A stretch of DNA of 62,146 nucleotides. It comes from Demequina sp. (lineage in GTDB: Bacteria; Actinomycetota; Actinomycetes; Actinomycetales; Demequinaceae). The notes beneath the pieces are model-generated. The model did not search any database. It saw only the letters and a list, made by a program, of their open reading frames with translations, and was not told the origin of the DNA. The first letter of the stretch is position 1. Each line of letters starts with the position of its first letter. Location: assembly GCA_030148645.1 (NCBI GenBank), contig JASBTB010000032.1:1-62146 (forward strand), written 5' to 3'. Both the position numbers and the translations under genes were made by a program. This document shows, one piece after another, positions 2-12,391 of this stretch.

Positions 2-904
2 CGTAGCGCGGCACGGGTGGCGGCCCAGTCCCGTCACGGCGATCTGGCGCTGGGGGTGGTCTCGCTAGGGGACGCCGATCCGCTCAGGGCCGTCCACGTG
101 CGCGATGCGCTCGCCGAGCGCATCGACCAAGGCCGGATCGATACCCGCCACCGCCGCACCAGGGACGGCCGCGTGATGCTCGTGGGCTCTGGGCCGGGGG
201 CCGATGACCTCATCACGGTGCGAGGCATGCGAGCGCTCACAGAAGCGGATGTGGTGATCGCCGATCGCCTCGCCGCCACGGGTCTACTCGAACGCCTGCC
301 CGTCGACGTGGAAGTCATCGACGTCGGCAAGTCTCGCGACAACCATCCCGTGCCCCAACACCAGATCAACACCCTGGTGGTGGACCGTGCCCGGGCAGGC
401 AAGTGCGTCGTGCGCCTCAAGGGCGGCGACCCGTTCGTCTTTGGGCGCGGCGGCGAGGAGGTCCATGCGTGCCTGGAGGCGGGGGTCAGCGTCGAGGTGG
501 TGCCGGGGGTCAGTTCGGCCCTTGGACTGCCCACTTTGGCGTGGATACCGGTCACCCAACGCTCCGTCGCCGCGACCGTCGTGATTACGTCGGGCCACGC
601 TGGCCCCGACGCCACGGCGAAGGCGGCAATGGCCGCGGGCGCCACGGTGGTGGCGCTCATGGCCGTCCACCATCTTCACGAGTTTGTGACCGCGGGCCTG
701 AGCGCGGGCGCCTCGCCCGACACGCCCGTCGCGATCATCGAGAGCGGCTCCACGCCCCGGGAGCGCATCACACGCGCCACACTGGCACGCGTCAGTCTTA
801 TTGCGGACGAAACGGGCGTGAAACCTCCTGCGGTTATCGTCATCGGAGACGTCGCGCAACCGGGGCTCCTTGCCTCAGAGGTAGCTCGGACCGCACGCCC
901 GTAG
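2..904 (+). CDS. cysG: Siroheme synthase CysG-type / uroporphyrinogen-III C-methyltransferase, 5' truncated by window edge
   Basis: The reading frame is open to the left edge, so the start is missing. The first ~50 residues look like the tail of a precorrin-2 dehydrogenase/ferrochelatase domain. A complete uroporphyrinogen-III C-methyltransferase (tetrapyrrole methylase) domain then starts near nt 170: VGSGPG glycine-rich loop, GGDPFVFGRGGEE signature near nt 420, and conserved PGVSSALG. The enzyme uses S-adenosylmethionine to methylate uroporphyrinogen III to precorrin-2 in the cytosol. The downstream chelatase gene starts 23 nt after the stop, so the pair is probably one siroheme operon. 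The N-terminal domain assignment is inference because most of it lies outside. Confidence 0.88.
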   Translation, partial: RSAARVAAQSRHGDLALGVVSLGDADPLRAVHVRDALAERIDQGRIDTRHRRTRDGRVMLVGSGPGADDLITVRGMRALTEADVVIADRLAATGLLERLPVDVEVIDVGKSRDNHPVPQHQINTLVVDRARAGKCVVRLKGGDPFVFGRGGEEVHACLEAGVSVEVVPGVSSALGLPTLAWIPVTQRSVAATVVITSGHAGPDATAKAAMAAGATVVALMAVHHLHEFVTAGLSAGASPDTPVAIIESGSTPRERITRATLARVSLIADETGVKPPAVIVIGDVAQPGLLASEVARTARP

Positions 905-927
905 GGAAGTCCGGAGGTGAACATGCT

Positions 928-1632
928 GTGAGACAGGCGCCGATTCTCATCGGTTGTGCCCATGGAACGGCCTCTGAGGAGGGGCAGGCCGCGGTACGCG
1001 AGCTCCTTGCGGCGGTGCGCGGTGCGATGCCCGATGTGGTGGTCAGGGAGGCGTACGTCGATGTGCACGGGCCGTTCCTTGACGACGTCATCGGACAGGT
1101 TCCCGTCCGCGCCGAGGGGCTGTCCGCCGTCGTCGTGCCACTGCTGTTGGCCAGTGGATACCACGTGTACCACGACATCTCCACGGCGGTGGACTCACGT
1201 CCAGACGTCGTGAGTACGCAAGCGCTCGGGCCCGACCCGCGATTGGTCGGCATCGTGCTTGACCGTCTGCGGGAGGCGCGCGTACCGCCCGACGCCACCT
1301 TGGTTCTGGCTGCCGCAGGGTCCTCCGATCCGCGTTCGCGGGCGGACACCGAGGCGGCGGCCGAGACCCTGCGTAGTGCGTGGGGTGGGCCGGTGCGGGT
1401 GGGCTTTGCCGCTGGTCACAGCCCATCGGTTGCCGACGCGGTGGCTCAAGCGCGCGAGTTTGGGGAGGGCGGCGCGGTCGCGGTCGCGTCTTTCCTCCTG
1501 GCACCGGGCGTGTTTCAGAAACGGTTGGGCGAGGTCGGCGCGGACCACGTGACCGGACCCCTCGCGCCTCACCCGGACCTGGCTGGCGTCGTGATGACGC
1601 GCTACCGCGAGTTGACCCTTGGGCATGATTGA
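928..1632 (+). CDS. Sirohydrochlorin chelatase (SirB/CbiX family)
   Basis: A 234-residue protein with the family's early GCAHGT motif (residues ~9-14) and a second half beginning PDATLVLAAAGSSDP, the internal duplication typical of CbiX/SirB. It inserts iron (or cobalt) into sirohydrochlorin. GTG at 928 is chosen because GGAGGTGA lies ~10 nt upstream and the HGT motif is then at the expected distance. The same frame stays open upstream to 403 but that part is the shadow of the preceding gene. Next to a CysG-type gene the substrate metal is more likely iron for siroheme, used by sulfite or nitrite reductases; cobalt cannot be excluded from sequence. Confidence 0.85.
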   Translation: MRQAPILIGCAHGTASEEGQAAVRELLAAVRGAMPDVVVREAYVDVHGPFLDDVIGQVPVRAEGLSAVVVPLLLASGYHVYHDISTAVDSRPDVVSTQALGPDPRLVGIVLDRLREARVPPDATLVLAAAGSSDPRSRADTEAAAETLRSAWGGPVRVGFAAGHSPSVADAVAQAREFGEGGAVAVASFLLAPGVFQKRLGEVGADHVTGPLAPHPDLAGVVMTRYRELTLGHD

Positions 1633-1810
1633 CCCTGTCGTGCGCGTGTCGGCGTAGCCGTTGGCGGTTTTCAGGCGCATCGGGCGCCATGAGATCGTTC
1701 GAGTGCGCGATCGCCCGATGTAGTAGCGCTGACAATGTGGAACCCCAGGTCGCTTGGCCGTGCCGACGCACCCCCGGCACGTGGCAGGTTTCAGCGAAGC
1801 AGCCGCGGCG
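1633..1810. other. Intergenic region between convergent genes
   Basis: No gene is supported in these 178 bases. They hold an inverted repeat of CATCGGGCG (1678-1686) and CGCCCGATG (1712-1720) with a 25-nt loop and no T-tract, which may act as a weak or factor-dependent terminator between the chelatase gene and the leftward regulator. Confidence 0.35.
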
Positions 1811-2470
1811 CTAGGCGAGATACAGACGGCATGCGCCCGCCTGAGCAAAAGGGTTCAGGCGTACCGCCGTGGCGGAAGCGCCCCGGGCGGCGAGCGCCCC
1901 CCGGGCCAGGCCCAGGTGCACCGCACACACGATGTCGGGTGCGGCGCGTACCGCGTCGAGCAGGGGGCACCGGCGTAGCGCAATGGAGCCGGTCGCGCTG
2001 TCGACCTCGGGCGCGAACCCCAGTTCGTCGAGCAGTGCCAGGACTGTGGCGTTGCTGGTGCTCGCGTCGTGGCGTGGCGCTAGGGCGAGTTCCGTGCCCC
2101 AGGCCTCGCCCGCCGCGATGGCATCTCGGCGCGGGTTGTCGCTCGTCGCGGCGATATGGCGTGCCAACGCACTGGCCAGGCCCACGTTGCCGCGCACCCT
2201 GGCATCGGGCTCCGCGTGGTGGGGGAGCGCCCGGTATGAGAATCCGGGGCGCCCACGGCCGACGGAGACGCCTGGGGTGCGCTCAAGGAGTCCTCGGTGG
2301 GCAAGCCCCTCGAGGTGCTTTCGCGCCGTGTTCTCGTGTAGCCCCAACTGGAGCGCGACCTGTGCCGCCGATGCCGCGGCGGTGCTGCGCTGCATCGCCT
2401 CGAGCACGCGCGCTCGCGGGTTCGACAGCGGCGGCTGCGCGGGGTTGAACCGCGATGGAGAGGGCCCCAT
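1811..2470 (-). CDS. SufR-like winged-helix transcriptional regulator
   Basis: A 219-residue protein. Residues ~15-80 form a winged helix-turn-helix (two-helix stretch around LQLGLHENTARKHLEGL). The C-terminal half carries a CP-x-LLDAVRAAPDIVCAVHLG stretch and a last Cys eight residues from a typical ...CRLYLA end, the pattern of SufR-type regulators that may bind an Fe-S cluster or metal. I start at the ATG at 2470 rather than the further upstream in-frame start at 2515, because the latter would place the probable operator inside the gene. It is divergent from the DUF2249/copper gene set, so it probably senses a redox, NO or metal signal and controls those genes. The ligand is unknown. Confidence 0.72.
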   Translation of the reverse strand: MGPSPSRFNPAQPPLSNPRARVLEAMQRSTAAASAAQVALQLGLHENTARKHLEGLAHRGLLERTPGVSVGRGRPGFSYRALPHHAEPDARVRGNVGLASALARHIAATSDNPRRDAIAAGEAWGTELALAPRHDASTSNATVLALLDELGFAPEVDSATGSIALRRCPLLDAVRAAPDIVCAVHLGLARGALAARGASATAVRLNPFAQAGACRLYLA

Positions 2471-2480
2471 ATTTTCCACG

Positions 2481-2495
2481 TAGTACAGTGTAGTA
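2481..2495. promoter_or_regulatory. Putative operator, imperfect palindrome between divergent genes
   Basis: TAGTACAGTGTAGTA agrees with its own reverse complement at 12 of 15 positions. It lies in the 65-bp gap between the regulator start (2470, minus) and the DUF2249 gene (2536, plus), the natural place for an autoregulatory site of the SufR-like protein. Function is inferred from position and symmetry only. Confidence 0.45.
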
Positions 2496-2535
2496 AATTG
2501 TGTACGAGACCGCACCGGATCGAAAAGGAACCTTC

Positions 2536-2871
2536 ATGACTCACTCAGCACCGGAGAATCTGCTCGCCGACACGGGAGTGTCCGCCACCGACGAGGCAGG
2601 TGGCTGCAGCGACGGCCAGTGCTCGTGCGGCGCCAACAACGCCGACGCGCCGGAGTTGGACGTCAAGAGCATTCCCGGGCCGGTGCGCCACACCGCGATC
2701 TTCGGGGCGCTCGAGTCGATCGCGCCCGGAGCGTCACTCATCCTGATCGCCCCGCACGAGCCCGTCCCGCTTCTCGAACAACTCGCCGCGGCGCAACCGG
2801 GCGTGTGGACGTCGACGATCGACCAGGCCGGACCCGAGGTCTGGCGCGTGCGCCTCACTCGCGCGTCGTAA
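2536..2871 (+). CDS. DUF2249 domain protein
   Basis: A 111-residue cytosolic protein. Residues ~45-110 match the DUF2249 layout: IPGPVRHTAIFGALESIAPG, then LILIAPHEPVPLLEQL, ending in a WRVRLTR strand. The N-terminal third is acidic and has a CSDGQCSCG cysteine cluster that could bind metal. ATG at 2536 is preceded by AAAAGGA at 2523-2529; the open frame further left has no such signal. DUF2249 proteins are commonly found near nitric-oxide and copper nitrite reductase genes, and the two genes downstream (5-nt gap, then overlap) fit that setting. No enzymatic role is established. Confidence 0.75.
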   Translation: MTHSAPENLLADTGVSATDEAGGCSDGQCSCGANNADAPELDVKSIPGPVRHTAIFGALESIAPGASLILIAPHEPVPLLEQLAAAQPGVWTSTIDQAGPEVWRVRLTRAS

Positions 2872-2875
2872 CACC

Positions 2876-3988
2876 ATGGCGGTCCGTGCGGCCCACGTGG
2901 GGCGCACCGCTACCGGATGGCGCGTGGGGATCGCACTGGCCGCTGTGGTCGCGCTCCTGGCGGGCCTCAATGGCGGACTGCAACTGCTGGGGCTCGACGC
3001 GCCCGTGACGTCGGGGCGCTTGCCGCAGGTACACGCTGTGGTGCTCACGCTCGGCTTTGTCGGCACGGTCATAGCGCTCGAGCGAGCCGTCGCGCTCGCA
3101 TCCAGGGCGGCGTGTGCCGCGCCAGCGCTACTCGCCATCGGCGCATTGTCGCTCGTCTTACCCGTGCCGCTGGTCCTCGCCAAGGCGTTTCTCCTAGCGG
3201 GCACGCTCGGGCTCGTATTCGTGTATGTGCGGTTGTGGAGGCGCCAGCGCGATCACGCGGTGTTGATTTCCGCGCTGGGGGCCGTGCTCGCGGTGGGTGC
3301 GAACATCCTGTGGTGGGGGCAGTTGCCCGTGCCACTCCTGCTTCCGTGGCTCGTCGGATTCGTGGTGCTCACGATTGCGGGCGAACGGCTCGAGCTCGCA
3401 AGGGTCGCCATTCCTGCCTCCGGTGAGACGGCTCTGGTCGCGGGCGCGGCCAGCATCGTCGTCGCCGCCATCGCGTCGCTACTGTGGCCCTATGGGGGAG
3501 TGGTCGGCTTCGGCGCGGCTGTACTGGCGCTGCTGGTCGTCTTGGTGCGCTACGACGTCGCGCGTCGCACCGTCCGCTCGCGAGGCCTGGCCCGGTACAT
3601 GGCCGCAGGGATGCTGGCCGCATACGGCTGGCTCGCCGTGGCTGGCGTCATCTGGCTGGTGGCAGGCCCCGCCTACCAAGGGGCACGTCTCGACGTCGTC
3701 GTCCACGCCGTATTCCTGGGCTTCGCCTTTTCGACGATCATGGCCCACGCCCCCGTGATCCTTCCGGCAATCACGCGCGGGGCCGTGGCGTACCGGTACG
3801 TCCTGTGGGTGCCCGTCGCAGCACTTCAGGCCGCGTTGATCCTGCGCCTAGTCGTGGGAGACGGGTTTGGTGTCGAAAGCGCATGGCGCGTGGGAGGCGT
3901 GGCGGGAGTGGCGGCACTCCTGCTGTTCCTCGCGACGGTGGCAGCCATGATGCTCCATGCGGGCCTTGCCAAGAACACGGTGTCGTGA
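2876..3988 (+). CDS. Multi-pass membrane protein, NnrS-like (tentative)
   Basis: A 370-residue integral membrane protein with about 10-12 hydrophobic segments and few charged loops. Motifs of note are QVHAVVLTLGFVGTVIALERAVAL (residues ~44-67) and HAVFLGFAFSTIMAHAPVILPAI (~270-292). Conserved His in membrane segments is reminiscent of the haem/copper NnrS family involved in nitrosative stress, but this is a style match, not a domain hit. It starts 5 nt after the DUF2249 gene and its TGA overlaps the ATG of the next gene (ATGA), so it is translationally coupled to the cupredoxin membrane protein. Confidence 0.6.
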   Translation: MAVRAAHVGRTATGWRVGIALAAVVALLAGLNGGLQLLGLDAPVTSGRLPQVHAVVLTLGFVGTVIALERAVALASRAACAAPALLAIGALSLVLPVPLVLAKAFLLAGTLGLVFVYVRLWRRQRDHAVLISALGAVLAVGANILWWGQLPVPLLLPWLVGFVVLTIAGERLELARVAIPASGETALVAGAASIVVAAIASLLWPYGGVVGFGAAVLALLVVLVRYDVARRTVRSRGLARYMAAGMLAAYGWLAVAGVIWLVAGPAYQGARLDVVVHAVFLGFAFSTIMAHAPVILPAITRGAVAYRYVLWVPVAALQAALILRLVVGDGFGVESAWRVGGVAGVAALLLFLATVAAMMLHAGLAKNTVS

Positions 3989-5685
3989 TGGCGAAGAGAC
4001 GAGGCTTCTCTGCGCTACGCGACATCCCTACCGTGCTGTGGCTCGTCGCGACGGTCGTGGTGGCGCTCGCCCATACGTCCGTTCCGGTGCCGCGGTGGCT
4101 CATGATTCACCTTCTGTTGCTTGGTGCGGTCAGTCATTCGATTCTGGTGTGGAGTCAACACTTCGCCGACGCGCTCTTGCGTACGCGGCCGCCACGCCAC
4201 CGGCTCGCTCGCATGGGAGTGCGGCTGGGCCTACTCAACGCGGGCGCCGTCCTGGTCGTGGGTGGCGTGGTGCTCGCCCGATGGGGGGTGACCGTCACGG
4301 GTGCGGCGGCGATCATCGTCGCCAGCGGCACCCATACCGCACTGTTGGTGCGCCAGATTCGCAGGTCGCTGCCCGCACGATTCGCGCCGACGGTACGTTT
4401 CTATGTGGTCGCGGCCGTGCTGCTCGTCCTGGGCGCGGCCATCGGCGCGATCCTGGCACGGGACATTTCGCAGGCCCTGCACGAGCGCCTCCAGGTGGCG
4501 CACGTCACACTCAACGTGCTCGGGTGGATCGGGATGACCGTGCTGGGGACCCTGATCACGCTGTGGCCCACCGTGCTCGGCACTCGCATCGAGCAAGGTT
4601 GCGCCGCGATGGCGATCAGGGCACTGCCGGTACTCACGGCTGGCGTCGTCTTCGCGGCATTGGGCGCCGTCGTCAACCAGCGTTGGTGGGTCACGATCGG
4701 GGTGGTGGCGTACCTCGTCGGGGTGGGGATGGTGGCCAGGGGACTGGTGTCTCATGCGTGGAGGCGACCCCCCGTCACGTACGCGACGCTCTCCATCGCG
4801 TCGGGCCTGCTGTGGGGAGCTGGCAGTCTTGGGGTGATTGCGTGGGCCAGCGCGAGCGCGCCCACGTGGACTGCCTTGGCGGGAACCTTCGATTCCGTCG
4901 CGCCCTTGCTCGCCGCGGGCTTCGCCGCTCAGGTGTTGGTGGGTGCGCTGTCCTTCCTGATTCCCGCCGTCCTTGGGGGAGGCCCGGCGAGTGCCCGCGT
5001 GTCGCATCGAGAGTTCGACAGGGGGGCTCAGTTGCGTATTGTCGTGATCAACGGGGGGCTGGCAGTGTGGGCGGTGGCAGTTCCCGCAGCGGTACGCGTC
5101 GCATCGTCCATGGCGGTATTGGCCGCGTTCGCCGCGTTCCTCGTGTTACTCGTGCGCGCGACCCGAGCATGGCGGTTGAGCCGCGAGGCCGCTCAGGGTC
5201 TCGTCACGCCGGGTTCCACGGGGTCGGGTGCGACGCCAGTGACGGTGCCGTGGCATGCGCGACCTCGGGGCCAACGCGCGGGGCTGGCCGCGACGGGACT
5301 CGCGATCGTCGCGCTCGTGGTCGCCATCGGCGTTGCCCTGGACCCCGCACCCTTCGCAGCCGCGGCCAACGCGGGGCCACTGGATGCGGCGGCGGTGCCC
5401 ACCGGTCGCACGGTCGAGGTACGAGTGAATGCCGCGGACATGCGCTTCACCCCCGACACGATCACTGTCGATCCCGGCGACCGCCTGATTGTCACGGTGG
5501 ACAACGCCGACGCCACACACGTCCACGATCTGGTGCTCGACTCGGGGGACACCACAGCCAGGCTCGTGCCGGGGCAGATCGAAGTGCTCGACGTTGGCCT
5601 CGTGGGCCGGAACGCGCAGGGATGGTGCTCCGTGCTTGGACACCGATCGATGGGAATGGTGCTGTCGATCGATGTCACGGGCTAG
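3988..5685 (+). CDS. Membrane protein with C-terminal type-1 copper cupredoxin domain
   Basis: A 565-residue protein: residues 1-~450 are ~10-12 transmembrane segments with HLLLLGAVSHSILVWSQHFADALLR near the start and HVTLNVLGWIGMTVLGTLITLWP in the middle. Residues ~470-565 form a cupredoxin domain with type-1 copper ligands visible as the His of HDL and C-x4-H-x4-M in CSVLGHRSMGM. Where a multicopper oxidase would have HCH, this has W-C-S, so trinuclear-site histidines are absent. The membrane part resembles the N-terminal part of long actinobacterial NirK-like proteins, but the two catalytic NirK domains are missing. It probably transfers electrons or handles copper/NO at the outer membrane face; substrate unknown. 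Confidence 0.68.
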   Translation: MAKRRGFSALRDIPTVLWLVATVVVALAHTSVPVPRWLMIHLLLLGAVSHSILVWSQHFADALLRTRPPRHRLARMGVRLGLLNAGAVLVVGGVVLARWGVTVTGAAAIIVASGTHTALLVRQIRRSLPARFAPTVRFYVVAAVLLVLGAAIGAILARDISQALHERLQVAHVTLNVLGWIGMTVLGTLITLWPTVLGTRIEQGCAAMAIRALPVLTAGVVFAALGAVVNQRWWVTIGVVAYLVGVGMVARGLVSHAWRRPPVTYATLSIASGLLWGAGSLGVIAWASASAPTWTALAGTFDSVAPLLAAGFAAQVLVGALSFLIPAVLGGGPASARVSHREFDRGAQLRIVVINGGLAVWAVAVPAAVRVASSMAVLAAFAAFLVLLVRATRAWRLSREAAQGLVTPGSTGSGATPVTVPWHARPRGQRAGLAATGLAIVALVVAIGVALDPAPFAAAANAGPLDAAAVPTGRTVEVRVNAADMRFTPDTITVDPGDRLIVTVDNADATHVHDLVLDSGDTTARLVPGQIEVLDVGLVGRNAQGWCSVLGHRSMGMVLSIDVTG

Positions 5686-5878
5686 GCGTTCGGGCTCGTG
5701 ACCCTCAACGACGTGGGTGTTGCTCGGGCCCCTCATGGCTGGGCGTTCGCTGTATGCAGTCCCAATACGCCCGGCGGGGTGTTTATACTCCTGGGCGTGT
5801 GCGGGCGTCCGAGACGGTGAGTTGCCCGGGTTCATGGTCTAGTGAGGACAGTCCGCGCTAGGGTAGTTCGCACCTGGG
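5686..5878. other. Intergenic region between convergent genes
   Basis: 193 bases with no supported gene. A TTTATACT stretch near 5780 could be a -10 element, but no reading frame follows it on the plus strand, so a small RNA is possible but unproven. Confidence 0.25.
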
Positions 5879-6400
5879 CTACGCGGAGGAGTGGTCGTCG
5901 TCGTCGAGTGTGTCGTTGAGCTCGTTGTAGAGCATTGCATGGACCTTTGCCACGTGCGGGATGTCGTCGAACTCAAGTGGCTCGTCTGAGGCTGACTCGA
6001 CGATCAGCGTGCCGGTGCGGAACATCCGGTCGATGAGGCTATGGCGAAACTGCACCGAGTTGATGCGCGCCATGGGAATGTCGATTCCGGTCTTCGTGAA
6101 TACTCCCGTGCGGAACATGAGCCGGCGATTCGTGATGGCGAAGTGCGTGGTGGCCCATCTTGCGAGCGGAGCGATGGTCCACCAGGAGAATGCTGTCAGC
6201 CATGCGACACCCAGCGCGATCCCAAGAACCCACCGCCAGAGCGAGTCCACATCCCGGCCCTGGAGCAACACCAGGAGTGTTACTGAGGCCGCGGTGCTCA
6301 CCACGGCGACGACGATGGCGCCCAGGATCGTCTTCCAGTGCTTGTGTCGATGCAGCAGCAGTTCTTCGTCTGGAGCGAGTCCGTCTTCCATGATTCCCAT
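5879..6400 (-). CDS. PH domain-containing membrane protein (bPH2/YdbS-like)
   Basis: A 173-residue protein with two transmembrane helices (residues ~25-50 and ~58-80) followed by a bacterial pleckstrin-homology domain. The stretch TNRRLMFRTGVFTKTGIDIP, then MARINSVQFRHSLIDRMF and GTLIVESAS, is typical of bPH2. The acidic C-terminus is DDDDHSSA. ATG at 6400 is preferred; ATG at 6391 is equally possible. Function in such proteins is not known beyond a membrane role. It is divergent from the ATP-grasp gene, with about 100 bp shared as promoter region. Confidence 0.8.
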   Translation of the reverse strand: MGIMEDGLAPDEELLLHRHKHWKTILGAIVVAVVSTAASVTLLVLLQGRDVDSLWRWVLGIALGVAWLTAFSWWTIAPLARWATTHFAITNRRLMFRTGVFTKTGIDIPMARINSVQFRHSLIDRMFRTGTLIVESASDEPLEFDDIPHVAKVHAMLYNELNDTLDDDDHSSA

Positions 6401-6489
6401 GAGGCAGAAACTATCAGCGCGCCCGAGCGGGCGGAAGGGACCTCGCAAAGCGACCGCGGACGTGAAACGCGGCGGATACCTGACGCAGA

Positions 6490-6495
6490 TACCCT
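6490..6495 (+). promoter_or_regulatory. -10 element of a likely leaderless promoter (ATP-grasp operon)
   Basis: TACCCT ends 6 nt before the ATG at 6502 and there is no Shine-Dalgarno sequence, which places the transcription start at or next to the start codon. Confidence 0.5.
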
Positions 6496-6501
6496 GGGCA
6501 C

Positions 6502-8085
6502 ATGGCTGGCGACGCTACGACACCCTGGACTGGGTACTCGCCCGCCGCCGCGTGGGACGAGGCAGTCGACGTTCAGGGTGAGGTGAGGGAACCGTACGCG
6601 AAGGTCTACTCCGAGATCGAGAGGATGTCGGGCGAGGACCTCCAGGCCAGGGCGGAAGCGCTCGCCAACACGTATCTTGCCCAGGGTGTGACGTTCGACC
6701 ACGCGGGCGAGGAGCGGCCATTCCCGCTCGATATCGTGCCCCGTGTAGTGGGCGCAGACGAATGGGAGATCATCTCGCCGGGCGTCGCTCAGCGGGTGCG
6801 GACGCTCGAGGCGTTCCTCGCGGATGTGTACGGGTCTCAGCGGTGCGTCACGGACGGCATCATCCCGCGGCGCCTCATCACTACGTCCCAATACTTCCAC
6901 CGCGTGGTGGGTGCGGTCGATCCCGCCAACGGGGTGCGGGTGCACGTGTCGGGCATCGACCTGGTGCGCGACCACCACGGGATCTGGCGCGTGCTCGAAG
7001 ACAACGTGCGCGTGCCCTCGGGCGTGAGTTACGTGCTGTCCAACCGTCGCGCCATGAGCCAGATGTTCCCCGACCTGTTCGGCGCGATGGGCGTGCGGCC
7101 CGTGCTCGAGTACAGCCAGCGGCTGCGGTCCGCGCTCGCGAAGGCCGCGCCCGAAGGCGTCGAAGATCCGTCGATCGTGGTGCTGTCGCCCGGCGTGTTC
7201 AACTCCGCCTACTACGAGCACTCATTGCTGGCGCGCACCATGGGCGTCGAGCTCGTTGAGGGTCGCGACCTTGAGACCCACGCCGGCCGCGTGTACATGC
7301 GGACGACGGCGGGGCGGCGCCGCGTGGACGTCATCTACCGGCGGGTAGACGACGAATACCTCGACCCCGTGGTGTTTCGCCCCGACTCCGCCTTGGGTGC
7401 CCCTGGCATCGTCCACGCCGCCCGCTTGGGCAACGTCGCCATTGCCAACGCGATCGGCAACGGCGTGGCCGACGACAAGCTGATCTACACGTACATGCCA
7501 GAGCTCACGCGCTACTACCTGGGCGAGGAGCCGATCCTGCCCAACGTGGACACGTGGCGCCTCGAGGACCCTGAAGCGCTCGAGGAGGTCATGGATCGAT
7601 TCGACGAACTCGTGACCAAGCCGGTGGACGGGGCAGGAGGCAAGGGCGTGCTGATCGGCCCGGCCGCCTCCAAGAGCGAGCTCGAGGCCGCGCGCCAGCA
7701 CATCTTGGAGGATCCCCGCGGGTGGATTGCGCAGCCAGTCGTGCAGCTGTCCACCGTGCCCACGCTCACGTCCGAGGGGCTCGAGCCGCGTCACGTGGAC
7801 CTCAGGCCGTTCGCCATCAACGACGGCGACGACGTCTGGGTGCTGCCGGGCGGCCTCACCCGCGTGGCGCTGCAGCGCGGCCAACTCATCGTCAATTCCT
7901 CTCAAGGCGGCGGGTCCAAGGACACCTGGGTGCTGGGCGGGGTGCGCCACCGTGGCTCCGTGCCGCCTCCCGAGTCGCGCGTCGAGTTCGCGGGGGTGGA
8001 GCCGGTGCCGCAGTCAGCACACCCCGAGGATTACGTGCACGGGCAACAGCAAATGCAGCAGCAACAGCAGGGGTCGACATGCTGA
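6502..8085 (+). CDS. Circularly permuted ATP-grasp protein (DUF404/DUF407 family)
   Basis: A 527-residue cytosolic protein of the circularly permuted ATP-grasp type 2 family. Family signatures include the Asn/Asp-rich VLEDNVRVPSGVSYVLSNRRAM near residue 165, PVDGAGGKGVLIGP near 375 (ATP-binding loop) and a late WVLPGGLTRVAL. Members are predicted to form peptide or amide bonds using ATP and are encoded with alpha-E and transglutaminase-like partners, as here. The last 20 residues contain a glutamine tract (QQQMQQQQQ) encoded by a CAR-rich stretch at 8047-8070. The next gene's ATG overlaps the 3' end by 7 nt. Confidence 0.88.
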   Translation: MAGDATTPWTGYSPAAAWDEAVDVQGEVREPYAKVYSEIERMSGEDLQARAEALANTYLAQGVTFDHAGEERPFPLDIVPRVVGADEWEIISPGVAQRVRTLEAFLADVYGSQRCVTDGIIPRRLITTSQYFHRVVGAVDPANGVRVHVSGIDLVRDHHGIWRVLEDNVRVPSGVSYVLSNRRAMSQMFPDLFGAMGVRPVLEYSQRLRSALAKAAPEGVEDPSIVVLSPGVFNSAYYEHSLLARTMGVELVEGRDLETHAGRVYMRTTAGRRRVDVIYRRVDDEYLDPVVFRPDSALGAPGIVHAARLGNVAIANAIGNGVADDKLIYTYMPELTRYYLGEEPILPNVDTWRLEDPEALEEVMDRFDELVTKPVDGAGGKGVLIGPAASKSELEAARQHILEDPRGWIAQPVVQLSTVPTLTSEGLEPRHVDLRPFAINDGDDVWVLPGGLTRVALQRGQLIVNSSQGGGSKDTWVLGGVRHRGSVPPPESRVEFAGVEPVPQSAHPEDYVHGQQQMQQQQQGSTC

Positions 8086-9002
8086 GCCGGATCGCCGAGT
8101 CGCTCTTCTGGATCGGGCGCTACGTGGAGCGTGCGGACAACACCGCGCGTCTGCTCGACGTGCACCTCAACGTGCTGCTCGAAGACCCGTGGGTGGACGA
8201 GCCCACCGCCAACGCGTCACTCCTTGCCGTGATGCACGTGCCCGTGGACGGCGCGGTCACGCGCGACGCGGTGATCAGGGCGCTCGCGACGGACGCCACC
8301 CTGTCGTCGTCCATCTCAGGGACCCTTGGCGCCGCCCGCGACAACGCGCGTCGTGCCCGCGAGGTAATCTCCACCGAGGTGTGGGAGTCGCTCAACACCA
8401 CGTACATGCAGCTGGGTGCGCGCTCGCGCACGCCTCGCCCGCACGACTTCTTCACGTGGGTGAGGGAGCGTGCCGCGGTGGTGTGGGGGCTGCACAGCGC
8501 CACCACGTCGCGCGACGATGCGTGGAACTTCATGGAGTTGGGGCGTTCACTTGAGCGTGCCGACATGATCGCCAGGCTGCTCATGACCAAGGCGCTCGCA
8601 GGCACCACCGGCCCCAACTGGACCACGCTGCTGCGCACCTGCTCCGCCCACGAGGCCTACCTGCGCACCGTGAGGTCGCTCGTGACCGAGGAGCGCGCGG
8701 CGGAGTTCCTGCTCATTGACAGGCTGTTCCCGCGCTCGATCGCATACAACCTTGACAAGGCCGAGACCACCCTTGCGCTCATCGAGCCGGGGCTGGCGCG
8801 CCACTCGCAGACCGACCACGCCAGGCTGGCGCTTGGCAGGGCGCGCACCAACCTCGAATACCAGGCAATCGACGAGATTCTGGAGGACCTGCCCGCCCAG
8901 ATGCGCCAGGTGCAGCGGGCCTGCGCGTCGGCGTCGGACATCATCAGGGACCGGTTCTTCCTGCCGTCGTCGTCCGTGCTGTGGAGTCAGGAGGCGGTGT
9001 GA
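8079..9002 (+). CDS. Alpha-E domain protein (DUF403)
   Basis: A 307-residue, largely alpha-helical protein starting MLSRIAESLFWIGRYVERADN, the hallmark of the alpha-E family, with a second SLERADMIARLL motif near residue 160 and LEDLPAQMRQVQRAC near the end. The role is unproven; the family is almost always encoded between a permuted ATP-grasp and a transglutaminase, suggesting it is part of a peptide-modifying system. ATG at 8079 is chosen because the family signature begins there; the frame is open further upstream only as a shadow. It overlaps both neighbours, indicating translational coupling. Confidence 0.88.
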   Translation: MLSRIAESLFWIGRYVERADNTARLLDVHLNVLLEDPWVDEPTANASLLAVMHVPVDGAVTRDAVIRALATDATLSSSISGTLGAARDNARRAREVISTEVWESLNTTYMQLGARSRTPRPHDFFTWVRERAAVVWGLHSATTSRDDAWNFMELGRSLERADMIARLLMTKALAGTTGPNWTTLLRTCSAHEAYLRTVRSLVTEERAAEFLLIDRLFPRSIAYNLDKAETTLALIEPGLARHSQTDHARLALGRARTNLEYQAIDEILEDLPAQMRQVQRACASASDIIRDRFFLPSSSVLWSQEAV

Positions 9003-9871
9003 GTATCCTCAAAGTGGTGCACAACACCACCTTCAACTACGCGACGCCCATCCAGAACTCGTACAACGAGGCGAGGCTCACGCCCGCATGGCTGCCGCGC
9101 CAGCGCGTGCTCGAGTCCAAGCTGGAGATTCACCCTGTGTCGTGGAAGTCGTCGTACCGCGACTACTGGGAGACCGCCGTGGTGGTGTTCGAGGTCACCG
9201 AGCCGCACACGTCGCTGTCAGTGACCGCCACGTCTCAGGTCGAGGTGCTACCCGTCACGCACAAGGCGGAACGCGTGGAGTGGGACGCCCTTCAGGGGCC
9301 GATGTTCCAGGACCTGCTGTCGGAGTACCTTGCGGTGTCCAAGGCCACGGAGCCGAGCGACGACCTGGCGGATTTTGCGCGCGAGGTCAAGGCCAAGGGC
9401 GGCCCTGATGAGGCGGCGCGGGCCATCTGCGACCACCTCAACGCCTCCATGATGTACGTGCCTGGCTCCACCAATGTGCACAGCCTGGCGCGCGAGGCAT
9501 GGGCCGAGAAGTCAGGCGTCTGCCAAGACTTTGCCCACCTCGCCATCGGCGCACTGCGCAGTATCGGCATCCCCGCGCGCTACGTGTCCGGCTACCTCCA
9601 CCCCAATCCGGACGCGCCCATCGGCGAGACGGTGCGGGGCGAGAGCCACGCGTGGGTCGAGTGGTGGACAGGGGACTGGTTTGGCTTTGACCCCACCAAC
9701 GACCGCGAGGCTGGCGATCACCACGTGATCGTGGCGCGTGCGCGCGAGTATCGCGACGTGGCGCCGCTGACCGGCGTGTTCGGTGGTTCGACCAGCAACC
9801 TTGAGGTCTCCGTCAAGGTGACGCTGCTCGGTGAGGCCGACAGCGTCGGCCGTGCCCGCCTGCCTCGCTAG
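8999..9871 (+). CDS. Transglutaminase-like cysteine peptidase family protein
   Basis: A 290-residue protein with an N-terminal beta-rich region (residues 1-~105, bacterial transglutaminase-like N-terminal type) and a transglutaminase core. The catalytic triad is visible: Cys in SGVCQDFAHL (~residue 173), His in ESHAWVEWW (~214) and Asp in GFDPTND (~228). GTG at 8999 is selected because AGGAGG lies at 8989-8994 and the GTG overlaps the alpha-E stop (GTGTGA). It probably hydrolyses or forms amide bonds on a peptide made with the upstream ATP-grasp protein; the substrate is not known. Confidence 0.88.
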   Translation: MSILKVVHNTTFNYATPIQNSYNEARLTPAWLPRQRVLESKLEIHPVSWKSSYRDYWETAVVVFEVTEPHTSLSVTATSQVEVLPVTHKAERVEWDALQGPMFQDLLSEYLAVSKATEPSDDLADFAREVKAKGGPDEAARAICDHLNASMMYVPGSTNVHSLAREAWAEKSGVCQDFAHLAIGALRSIGIPARYVSGYLHPNPDAPIGETVRGESHAWVEWWTGDWFGFDPTNDREAGDHHVIVARAREYRDVAPLTGVFGGSTSNLEVSVKVTLLGEADSVGRARLPR

Positions 9872-9874
9872 AAT
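9869..9874 (+). promoter_or_regulatory. -10 element of a likely leaderless promoter for leuS
   Basis: TAGAAT sits 6 nt before the GTG of leuS. Its TAG is also the stop codon of the transglutaminase gene, so leuS seems to have its own promoter inside the end of the preceding operon. Confidence 0.55.
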
Positions 9875-9880
9875 CCTGGG

Positions 9881-12391
9881 GTGACCTCCCCCGAGACTTC
9901 CCTGGACGACGCGCGCTACGACTTTCACATGATCGAGCAGCGGTGGCAGCCGGTGTGGGCGGACAAGCAGCCGTTCCGATCTTGCGACGTCGACGACGAG
10001 CGTCCCACCAAGTACGTGCTGGACATGTTCCCGTACCCTTCCGGTGACCTTCACATGGGTCACGCGGAGGCGTACGCGCTGGGAGACGTGATCTCGCGCT
10101 ACTGGACCCTCAAGGGCTTCAACGTGCTGCACCCCATCGGCTGGGACTCGTTCGGCCTGCCCGCCGAGAACGCGGCGATCAAGCGCGGCGTTGACCCTGC
10201 CGGGTGGACAGAGGCGAACATCGCTCAGCAGCGCACCTCGATGGAGCGCTACGCGTGCTCCTTCGACTGGGACCGGGTGCTCATGACCCACCGTCCGGAG
10301 TACTACCGCTGGAACCAGTGGATCTTCACCCGACTGTTCGACCGCGGCCTGGCGTATCGCAAGCCGTCCCTGGTCAACTGGTGCCCCTTCGACCAGACGG
10401 TGCTCGCCAACGAGCAGGTCGTGGCCGGGCTGTGCGAACGCTGCGACACCCCCGTCACCAAGAAGAAGCTCACCCAGTGGTATTTCAAGGTCACCGACTA
10501 CGCCGACGAGCTCCTGGACGGCCTGGAGACACTGCGCGAGACGTGGCCCTCCAAGGTCATCGCGATGCAGCGCAACTGGATCGGTCGCTCCCGCGGCGCC
10601 GATGTCCAGTTTGTGATCGAAGGTCGCAAGGCGCCAATTCCGATCTACACGACGCGCCCCGACACGCTCTTTGGTGCGACGTTTATGGTGGTCGCGGTCG
10701 ATTCCGACCTGGCCGCAGAGCTCCTGGCCGACACCGACGAGGCGACCAAGGCGGAGTTCGCCGCGTACGCTGAGAAGGTCAAGGGCGACACCGAGATCGA
10801 GCGCCTCAGCACCGAGCGGCCCAAGACGGGCGTGTTCCTGAGCCGCTACGCGATCAACCCGGTCAACGGGGAGAGGCTGCCGATCTGGGCCTCCGACTAT
10901 GTGCTCGCCGACTATGGACACGGCGCCATCATGGCCGTGCCCGCCCACGACCAGCGCGACCTCGACTTCGCGCGCGCCATGGGCCTGCCGGTGCGCACCG
11001 TCCTGGATTGTCGCGACGACGACGGCAACCCGCTGCCCGATCCCGTCGAGTCGGGTGTGGCGACCGTGGGCGACGGCACGCTCATCAACTCCGGGTCGAT
11101 CAATGGCCTGGACAAGGCGGACGCGATCACCGCGATCGTCGCCGAACTCGAGAAGGCGGGCACAGCGTCGGCGTCCGTCAACTATCGCCTGCGCGACTGG
11201 CTGATCTCGCGCCAGCGCTACTGGGGCACGCCCATCCCGATCGTTCACTGCGACGCGTGCGGCGAGGTTCCCGTCCCCGACGACCAACTCCCCGTGACGC
11301 TGCCGCCGACCGCGGGCCTCGACCTCAAGCCCAAGGGCCAGTCGCCCCTGGCCGCCGCGACCGACTGGGTCAACACGACCTGCCCCACGTGCGGCGGCGC
11401 CGCCCTACGCGACACCGACACGATGGACACCTTCGTGGATTCGTCCTGGTACTTCCTGCGCTTTCTGTCGCCCCACAAGAGCGATGGGCCCTTCGACGTC
11501 GACGAGGCCAAGAAGTGGGCGCCCATCGACCAGTACGTCGGCGGCGTGACCCACGCGATCCTGCACCTCCTGTACGCGCGCTTCTTCACCAAGGCGCTGC
11601 GCGACATGGGCATGATCGACTTCGGTGAGCCCTTCACCGCGCTGCTGAATCAGGGCATGGTGCAGATGGACGGCTCCGCGATGTCCAAGAGTCGCGGCAA
11701 CCTCGTGAGCCTTGCGGCACAACTCGACGAGTTTGGCGTGGACGCGATTCGCCTCACGATGTCGTTTGCGGGACCGCCCGAGGACGACATCGACTGGGCG
11801 GATGTGTCGCCTGCAGGCTCCGCCAAGTTCCTGGCGCGTGCCTGGCGACTCGCCCGCGACGTGACCAGCGAGCCCGGCGTGGACCCTGCCGAAGGTGACC
11901 GCGACCTGCGGGCCGTGACGCATCGGACACTTTCCGAGGCATTTGAATTGGTCGAGTCGTTCCGCTTCAACGTGGTCGTCGCGCGCGTGATGGAGCTCGT
12001 GAACGCGACGCGTAAGGCCATCGATACCGGGGTGGGGGCCGCGGATCCCGCAGTGCGGGAGGCCGCCGAGGTCGTGGCCACGCTGCTGAGCCTGTTCGCG
12101 CCGTACTGCGCCGAGGACATGTGGTCGATGCTCGGTCACGAGGACTTGGTGGCGCTGTCCGGCCTGCCCGAGGTGGACGACGCGCTGCTGGTTCAGGACA
12201 GTGTCACGTGCGTGGTGCAGGTCATGGGCAAGGTGCGCGACCGCCTGGAGGTCTCGCCCAACGCCACAGAAGACGAGTTGCGCGACCTTGCCCTGGCCTC
12301 ACCCACCGTGCAACGAGCCATGGGCGGCGCACCCGTGCGCACGGTGATCGTGCGCCCGCCTGGACTCGTCAACGTCGTCGTCAACACGTAG
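9881..12391 (+). CDS. leuS: Leucyl-tRNA synthetase
   Basis: An 836-residue class I aminoacyl-tRNA synthetase that charges tRNA-Leu. The HIGH motif is HMGH (~residue 56) after MFPYPSGDL; the CP1 editing domain is marked by [15 protein letters not shown] (~255) with its editing Thr-rich and Asp regions; the KMSKS loop reads AMSKSRGN (~598). A C-terminal anticodon-binding domain with a final beta domain ([13 protein letters not shown]) completes the bacterial layout. The first Lys of KMSKS is Ala, a substitution I associate with actinobacterial LeuRS. The GTG start at 9881 fits the leaderless -10 element immediately upstream. Confidence 0.97.

Follow-up and report, generated by a model that had tools for sequence, protein, structure and literature searches.

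A NirK-less membrane–cupredoxin protein of Demequina whose anchor is predicted to adopt the heme-copper oxidase fold

The contig JASBTB010000032.1 of a Demequina sp. assembly (GCA_030148645.1), analysed over its 62,146 nucleotides and hereafter called the window, encodes at positions 2536–5685 a DUF2249 protein, a membrane protein of 370 residues (memA) and a 565-residue protein, P0003, in which a membrane domain (memB) is joined to a single C-terminal cupredoxin. Judged by homology, P0003 belongs to the actinobacterial family of fusions in which a transmembrane (TM) domain and a cupredoxin precede the copper nitrite reductase core of NirK, and it is most likely such a fusion protein minus its core, by origin a truncation. 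The reading that we favour, tentatively and at a little under an even chance, is that the locus descends from a membrane-anchored NirK and no longer has the enzyme, while the putative heme-b electron unit would now serve a different acceptor at the outer face or take part in nitric oxide (NO) or nitrite handling. The architecture of the fusion is already known, and the NirK-less variant is new as far as we searched. A preliminary description of this DNA, made from its letters, had the coordinates and features of the segment right, including P0003 and the DUF2249 protein; memA, which separates the two, was absent from it as an item of its own.

In a scan of GTDB contigs with P0003, 46 loci were found in other genomes, with 38–53% identity over the shared part (31 rows), and 41 of them were matched to residue 560 or beyond, among the best segments listed. 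A NirK core follows the cupredoxin in 42 of the 46, and the other four (L002, L003, L022, L031) end at a contig edge; for this reason truncation is taken as the most likely origin of P0003, and the earlier comparison of its membrane part with the N-terminus of longer actinobacterial NirK-like proteins holds. Four complete relatives read by eye (L004, L005, L036, L042) consist of a TM domain, a cupredoxin with the motif C-S-x-x-G-H-R-Q-M-G-M and a core bearing Y-H-C-x7-H-x4-M. The same order of parts, with a TM domain of about 400 residues and an extra CX4HX4M cupredoxin, is found in the long actinobacterial NirK of about 900 residues (Propionibacterium acnes type; PMC4770552). In contrast to that protein, P0003 is without the two-domain core and its type-1 and catalytic type-2 copper ligands by which a NirK is recognised. 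We infer that the core was lost instead of never gained. In L131 (G268, 6613–9496) and L130 (G331), memB and cupredoxin-NirK are separate adjacent or overlapping genes in different frames, a split version of the fusion. Apparent frameshifts within the fusion gene were seen in L035 (Microbacterium radiodurans, 8001–10582) and in L081 (G026, 9267–10096), and the latter is likely a sequencing error because COX1 of G026 is likewise split over two frames.

The frame of P0003 stops after its first cupredoxin, and no NirK-core remnant could be recognised downstream: when positions 5640–6520 were compared with 50 cores, the best tblastn match had E 0.009, against 0.015 for shuffled sequence, while a core-bearing stretch used as control gave E 1e-160 with the core of another genome. 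The preliminary description had seen no nirK in the window; this is confirmed and extends to the source genome (G000; 152 contigs, 94% complete), in which a core query returned one multicopper oxidase only (28% identity, E 6e-10, contig C40), CueO-like to judge from a reading of its open reading frames (ORFs). The genome also has one COX1, and a second, as a qNOR would give, was not found in it. This CueO-like oxidase is the only Cu-oxidase_3 match of the genome (G000:C40:6064-6582; L094, L095) and is a possible acceptor or unrelated.

The C-terminal domain of P0003 is, by its ligands and predicted fold, a type-1 cupredoxin. Its match to PF13473 (4e-5, 24 bits) is below the Pfam cut-off of 27 bits; the AlphaFold model places strands at 475–563, and the top six Foldseek matches are the cupredoxins AcoP and auracyanin (AcoP 7z3f_B, E 1.3e-4). 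The type-1 ligands noted in the preliminary description are intact (H513 in HDL; C547, H552 and M557 in C-x4-H-x4-M), and the four residues are kept in all 95 aligned domains, that of the window included. That description had also read W-C-S around the ligand Cys as a replacement of the trinuclear H-C-H; the letters are right, but W precedes the Cys in 92 and S comes after it in 71 of the 95 domains, so that W-C-S is normal for this domain and does not mark the loss of a trinuclear site. The N-terminal cupredoxin of Hyphomicrobium denitrificans NirK (2dv6), with its type-1 ligands in C-S-x-x-G-H-R-x-x-G-M, matches structurally at E 4.2e-3, although the sequence match, the sole one in the PDB, is insignificant (E 0.87), and the 2dv6 chain (447 residues) differs in keeping its NirK part and having no 12-TM domain. 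The cupredoxin of the window diverges roughly in step with memB, within the range of the family: the ratio of cupredoxin to memB divergence is 0.87, compared with a median of 0.83, and ranks 24th of 95 from the most divergent.

The assignment of a fold to memB and memA is the new part of this analysis and the part with reach. AlphaFold models were built from 32 sequences for P0003 (predicted local distance difference test, pLDDT, 88.0; predicted TM-score, pTM, 0.84) and from 28 for memA (pLDDT 87.5, pTM 0.87), and in both memB and memA a 12-TM fold of heme-copper oxidase or NO reductase (NOR) subunit I is predicted. The membrane part of P0003 aligns with cbb3 subunit I (3mk7_A; Z 27.5, 381 residues, 3.5 Å) and with NorB (4xyd_A; Z 26.0, 373 residues, 3.5 Å), and memA with cbb3 8smr_E (Z 27.8, 348 residues, 3.7 Å) and the same NorB (Z 25.8, 338 residues, 3.7 Å); as a yardstick, the typical best Z was 14 for five mostly helical models with no clear Foldseek match. 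The best 50 PDB rows for each protein are all heme-copper oxidases or NORs by title. Matches in plain Foldseek are weak, with a best E of 8.4e-4 for the membrane part of P0003 and 0.041 for memA. Across the comparisons with CcoN and NorB, memA and memB resemble subunit I in the predicted fold (Z 24–28 over 335–387 residues) and in the His of TM2, and differ from it in having 7–14% identity in the structural alignments and no COX1 (PF00115) sequence match, which was sought at E up to 10 in 32 memB-cupredoxin and 28 memA rows. Profile comparison of memB with memA gave E 0.018 with small alignments and 7.5e-4 at 25% probability with larger ones, and at these values their common descent is suggested, not shown. 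We found no published identification of the memB fold in a literature search that was thin on subscription journals. A 2016 paper lists the membrane part of actinobacterial NirK, of about 400 residues, as a TM domain of unknown function (PMC4770552). The predicted fold together with its fixed His residues makes a testable claim on how nitrite or NO chemistry is wired to the membrane in these bacteria.

In heme-copper oxidases, subunit I carries six His ligands, on TM2, TM6, TM7 (a pair) and TM10 (a pair). Among 97 memB rows, the only His conserved in at least 90% are those of TM2 and TM6 (H41 and H172, unvarying in 97/97), beside R350 (97/97) and Q315 of TM10 (95/97); among 65 memA rows they are those of TM2 and TM10, with H53 (TM2), H277 and H291 (TM10), E69-R70 and E170 invariant in all 65 (these memA numbers are five lower than in the residue-conservation listing). 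Neither set has a conserved His in TM7, so neither has the full six, and an oxidase-type CuB site is absent. The TM2/TM10 pair of memA would correspond, judged by helix order in the model, to the position of the oxidase low-spin heme, and to our knowledge the TM2/TM6 pair of memB has no known counterpart. In a genome of the same genus (G017), the locus comes after a hemC-hemD-hemB-aminotransferase-cobA run, whose class III aminotransferase we take by its position to be hemL. This run, and the association of DUF2249 with heme-copper oxidases made earlier in the literature (PMC11218638), help the view that memA and memB may bind heme.

The preliminary description had also hinted at an NnrS-like nature for P0003. 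This is unsupported, as none of the 32 memB-cupredoxin rows matched NnrS (PF05940), and at best the hint fits the neighbouring memA: sub-threshold matches, colinear over most of the profile, were obtained for three of ten memA members scanned singly (E 0.0093, 1.1 and 4) and in 4 of 28 members overall, the best reaching 15.8 bits against a curated cut-off of 28. An attempt to tie memA or memB by hhalign to L165, the only NnrS found (G237), gave nothing significant.

How often the membrane domain occurs without the core was considered in two surveys. With the full-length query, 132 of 396 genomes of the order were matched, seven of them without a core: the window genome, G051, and five with the membrane domain only (G017, G346, G335, G309, G197); G223, G272 and G322 were matched with spans that were not listed and stay unclassified. 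The form in G051 ends directly after the cupredoxin, as in the window, and keeps memA. When the seven genomes were searched for a core under looser settings, G017 and G197 gave nothing, and elsewhere the highest identity was 40%, over 88 residues, with 26–30% in the other matches. In the class, 62 of 394 genomes were matched, with membrane-only rows in G422, G503 (two loci), G425, G541, G413, G511 and G435, core-lessness being judged here at the E 1e-20 listing; the row of G495 is cut by its contig, and G541 cannot be taken as proven core-less, since memA and a second memB stretch lie on another contig. The window and its core-less relatives provide naturally occurring forms of the module that allow it to be studied apart from NirK.

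On the memB tree (108 rows, two places occurring twice; quick method with SH-aLRT support only; four contig-edge rows excluded from the count) a minimum of nine gains or losses of the core is needed, and the fusion could be younger than some of the stand-alone memB rows. The window and G017 form one clade with support 100 within a starred set of 31 tree rows, 22 of them with the core, and G051 (L079) falls in a different starred set, whose five rows include two membrane-only ones and two with the core. G017 is the nearest relative of the window, has its memB at the same chromosomal position and is core-less too, without memA and cupredoxin. The two loci are orthologous, sharing the cobA-CbiX-HTH-DUF2249-memB run (HTH, helix-turn-helix; CbiX seen in G017 through an antisense ORF match) and the downstream bPH-ATP-grasp block, but the distance between memB and bPH is 193 bases here (5686–5878) and 13.5 kb in G017 (G017:C1:1165905-1179432). 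Genes for a class II ribonucleotide reductase and a HerA-like ATPase lie in that 13.5-kb stretch. L077 was considered as a pseudogene and rejected as such, having an intact ORF of 404 residues with the reported stops beyond its end. The preliminary description had proposed to look for relatives of the same length without nirK elsewhere in their genomes, and had taken closest relatives that are full-length NirK as an argument against a separate module. G051 is a core-less relative that likewise ends after its cupredoxin. Most relatives found in the contig scan (42/46) carry the NirK core; the nearest of all, G017, does not.

Constraint was assessed at near-invariant columns, those in which 90% or more of the other rows agree. 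In memB the window deviates at one of 46 (rank 50 of 97), G017 at one of 45 and G051 at one of 47; the HTH regulator of the window deviates at one of 22 and its DUF2249 protein at two of 19 (rank 10 of 45, median 0). Thus memB looks maintained, and memA, considered below, and DUF2249 are slightly less constrained. Between the window and G017, memB has 67% identity and a ratio of nonsynonymous to synonymous divergence (omega) of 0.03 with saturated synonymous divergence (dS), which indicates constraint across the whole separation without dating it relative to core loss. Of 18 pairs fitted with a maximum-likelihood codon model, six had dS below 10 (window-L077 memB, L042-L003 and L079-L042 cupredoxin, L126-L127, L127-L128 and L129-L042), the rest having dS above 10 or being unbounded, and the window-L005 cupredoxin fit was numerically invalid. 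For the membrane-only genes of one genus, omega was 0.081 at dS 0.60 (L127-L128) and 0.065 at dS 2.25 (L126-L127), with the third pair unbounded. Core-less membrane domains thus recur across the class and, in the sole genus where it was measurable, are under purifying selection (omega 0.06–0.08). The preliminary description had left open a minimal redox module or a remnant; because G017 is core-less too, memB is unrelaxed, the cupredoxin is within the family range and purifying selection is seen in that genus, the module is the better fit, though one descended from NirK.

The partners of memB were counted with the two places that occur twice left out. Among core-bearing loci, memA is a neighbour of memB in 34 of the 51 with room (at least 4 kb on both sides), or in 62 of 88 regardless of room; it adjoins memB in both core-less loci with a cupredoxin and in none of the 12 membrane-only loci, and among the 14 genomes with core-less memB it occurs only in G000, G051 and G541. 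Among core-less loci, memA therefore goes with the copper domain. In Cryobacterium (L007, L009, L015–L019, L041, L045) the NirK fusion comes directly after DUF2249 with no detectable memA, and memA thus seems dispensable in some lineages.

The neighbourhood had been read earlier as pointing to NO, nitrite or copper stress. NO and nitrite are borne out by narGHJ, NarK and DUF2249 genes beside the memB of relatives; copper stress is not, the sole copper-named neighbour being a sub-threshold CopD match beside memB of L182. In L177 (G503:C21:105000-113133), narG-narH-narJ are followed by a membrane-only memB (43–7418), with no NirK match listed for G503, so that here the module accompanies nitrate reductase in the absence of NirK, and in L176 (G503:C32:6000-20000) memB is near MoeA, DUF2249, two NarK-family transporters and an IS110 transposase. 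NarJ was detected in four of the 14 genomes that have core-less memB, G000 and G017 not being among the four, in three of five same-genus genomes with a core and in none of 12 taken as memB-less, counts that are confounded by kinship and in which G273 is taken as memB-less for want of a listed match; the absences are less certain because G503 was not reported even though NarJ of L177 scores 5.4e-14. The divergent regulator had been called SufR-like, which stands weakly: the HTH_20 model is passed (29 bits, cut-off 27) and three Cys are conserved (38/38, 38/38 and 25/26 rows), but SufR TIGR02702 matches with 20.4 bits over residues 38–95 only, against a cut-off of 178.8 bits. SufR binds a [4Fe-4S] cluster through C-terminal Cys, and from its Cys pattern the regulator of the window may bind an Fe-S cluster as well. 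DUF2249 proteins have been linked to denitrification, with a proposal of nitrate sensors in Thermus (PMC11218638, PMC6282519).

In the favoured reading, memA and memB would make up a heme-b-bearing membrane unit that would draw electrons from menaquinol and deliver them at the outer face, where the cupredoxin would receive them at its type-1 copper; in the relatives, this copper would feed the fused NirK core. In the window, the core would have been lost at the domain boundary, NirK having been one former acceptor, and the unit would have been retained to serve a different acceptor at the outer face or for NO or nitrite handling, beside DUF2249 and the Cys-containing HTH regulator, a putative sensor. 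The oxidase-like fold of the anchor suggests that it has a job of its own. Several points weigh against this proposal. No established acceptor came to light in G000, which gave one COX1 and no NirK core, NarJ or NnrS. The fold is that of predicted models, of protein chains without heme, and sequence profiles do not tie memB or memA to COX1 (hhalign probability at most 0.1%). No detectable memA is present in 17 of the 51 core-bearing loci with room, and the 12 membrane-only loci have neither cupredoxin nor memA, so that electron transfer to copper cannot be the sole role of memB. Of the 76 near-invariant columns of memA, nine are changed in the window (median 3; rank 7 of 65), possibly an early sign of relaxation. 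Finally, the N-terminal cupredoxin of Hyphomicrobium NirK is reported to be so distant from the core that electrons could not pass effectively between them, and mutation of the type-1 copper of this cupredoxin is reported to have raised activity (PMC4770552), which speaks against cupredoxin-to-core transfer in the relatives of the window.

A wider proposal, possible and somewhat less probable than the favoured one, is that memB, with or without memA, represents an unrecognised non-oxidase branch of the heme-copper oxidase fold without CuB, with heme in other pockets (TM2/TM10 of memA and possibly TM2/TM6 of memB), acting as a quinol-to-cupredoxin or NO-binding module that is fused to NirK, stands beside NarGHJ or stands alone, the window being an intermediate. 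It is rather unlikely, though overlapping with the favoured reading, that the locus serves NnrS-like NO handling or sensing, in which the proteins would bind NO via heme and shield iron centres or pass a signal on to the HTH regulator and DUF2249, the cupredoxin being accessory. The persistence of memB in the 12 loci without cupredoxin, memA and NirK, the NarJ distribution, the colinear NnrS matches of memA and the link of DUF2249 to denitrification and nitrate sensing agree with it, and within 6 kb of membrane-only memB a DUF2249 gene is present in 5 of 12 loci and an HTH relative in 4 of 12. However, DUF2249 is not nearby in the other seven, the NnrS cut-off is not reached, the NarJ counts carry the effect of kinship, and it is left unexplained why the window and G051, both without a core, should keep every ligand of the type-1 copper site.

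We consider it similarly unlikely that the locus is a remnant, the NirK core having been deleted and memA/memB-cupredoxin being a leftover that has not decayed, with G017 as a later stage. This would account for the missing core with no trace downstream, for the smaller set of parts in the sister G017, for the changes in memA, for the repeated changes of core presence on the tree and for the failure to find NarJ in both genomes. Against it, neither memA nor P0003 has a broken frame, memB shows no acceleration, the cupredoxin diverges no more than is usual in the family, the window and G017 have both retained the regulator and DUF2249, and the low omega of memB comes from an old pair, in which it leaves core loss undated. 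A mis-joined contig after the cupredoxin, for which the fragmented, incomplete assembly and the different memB-bPH spacing in G017 could be quoted, is very improbable, given that a stop codon closes the frame at the end of the cupredoxin, as it does in G051, that the flanks match those of G017 in order and orientation, and that the core was not found on another contig.

The features of the locus and its flanks are collected in Table 1.

Table 1. Features of the memA–P0003 locus and its flanks (positions in the window).
Feature	Positions	Strand	Remarks
Uroporphyrinogen-III methyltransferase (cobA/SUMT type)	17–904	+	Conserved flank; PF00590 3.5e-46; syntenic in G017, 74% identity
CbiX-type chelatase	928–1632	+	Conserved flank; PF01903 1.4e-21
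Divergent HTH regulator, three conserved Cys	1811–2515	-	HTH_20 8.4e-7; 66% identical in G017
DUF2249 protein, 111 residues	2536–2871	+	PF10006 3e-22, residues 40–109
memA, 370 residues, 12 TM, predicted heme-copper oxidase subunit I fold	2876–3988	+	Model pLDDT 87.5
P0003, memB membrane domain and cupredoxin, 565 residues, without NirK core	3988–5685	+	
memB domain of P0003, residues 1–404, 12 TM, predicted heme-copper oxidase subunit I fold	3988–5199	+	
memB invariant His codons	H41 4108–4110; H172 4501–4503	+	
Extra TM helix of P0003, residues 429–451, linking memB to cupredoxin	5272–5340	+	DSSP on model
C-terminal type-1 cupredoxin of P0003 (by ligands and predicted fold), residues 473–565	5404–5682	+	
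Cupredoxin ligand codons	H513 5524–5526; C547 5626–5628; H552 5641–5643; M557 5656–5658	+	
193-base gap between P0003 and convergent bPH gene	5686–5878		No NirK-core remnant seen
bPH_2 protein, conserved downstream flank	5879–6448	-	PF03703 1.4e-19; same genes come next in G017, G013, G003

No inverted repeat of at least 8 bases was reported in an operator search of 2440–2560, and a comparison of P0003 with plasmids gave zero matches. One promoter and one terminator site were predicted, against 0.3 and 1.6, respectively, in shuffled sequence. At 6502–9871 of the window, a gene for a circularly permuted ATP-grasp protein is followed by apparent alpha-E and transglutaminase-type genes, and this block is conserved in each of the three genomes of the genus with which it was compared (G003, G013, G017).

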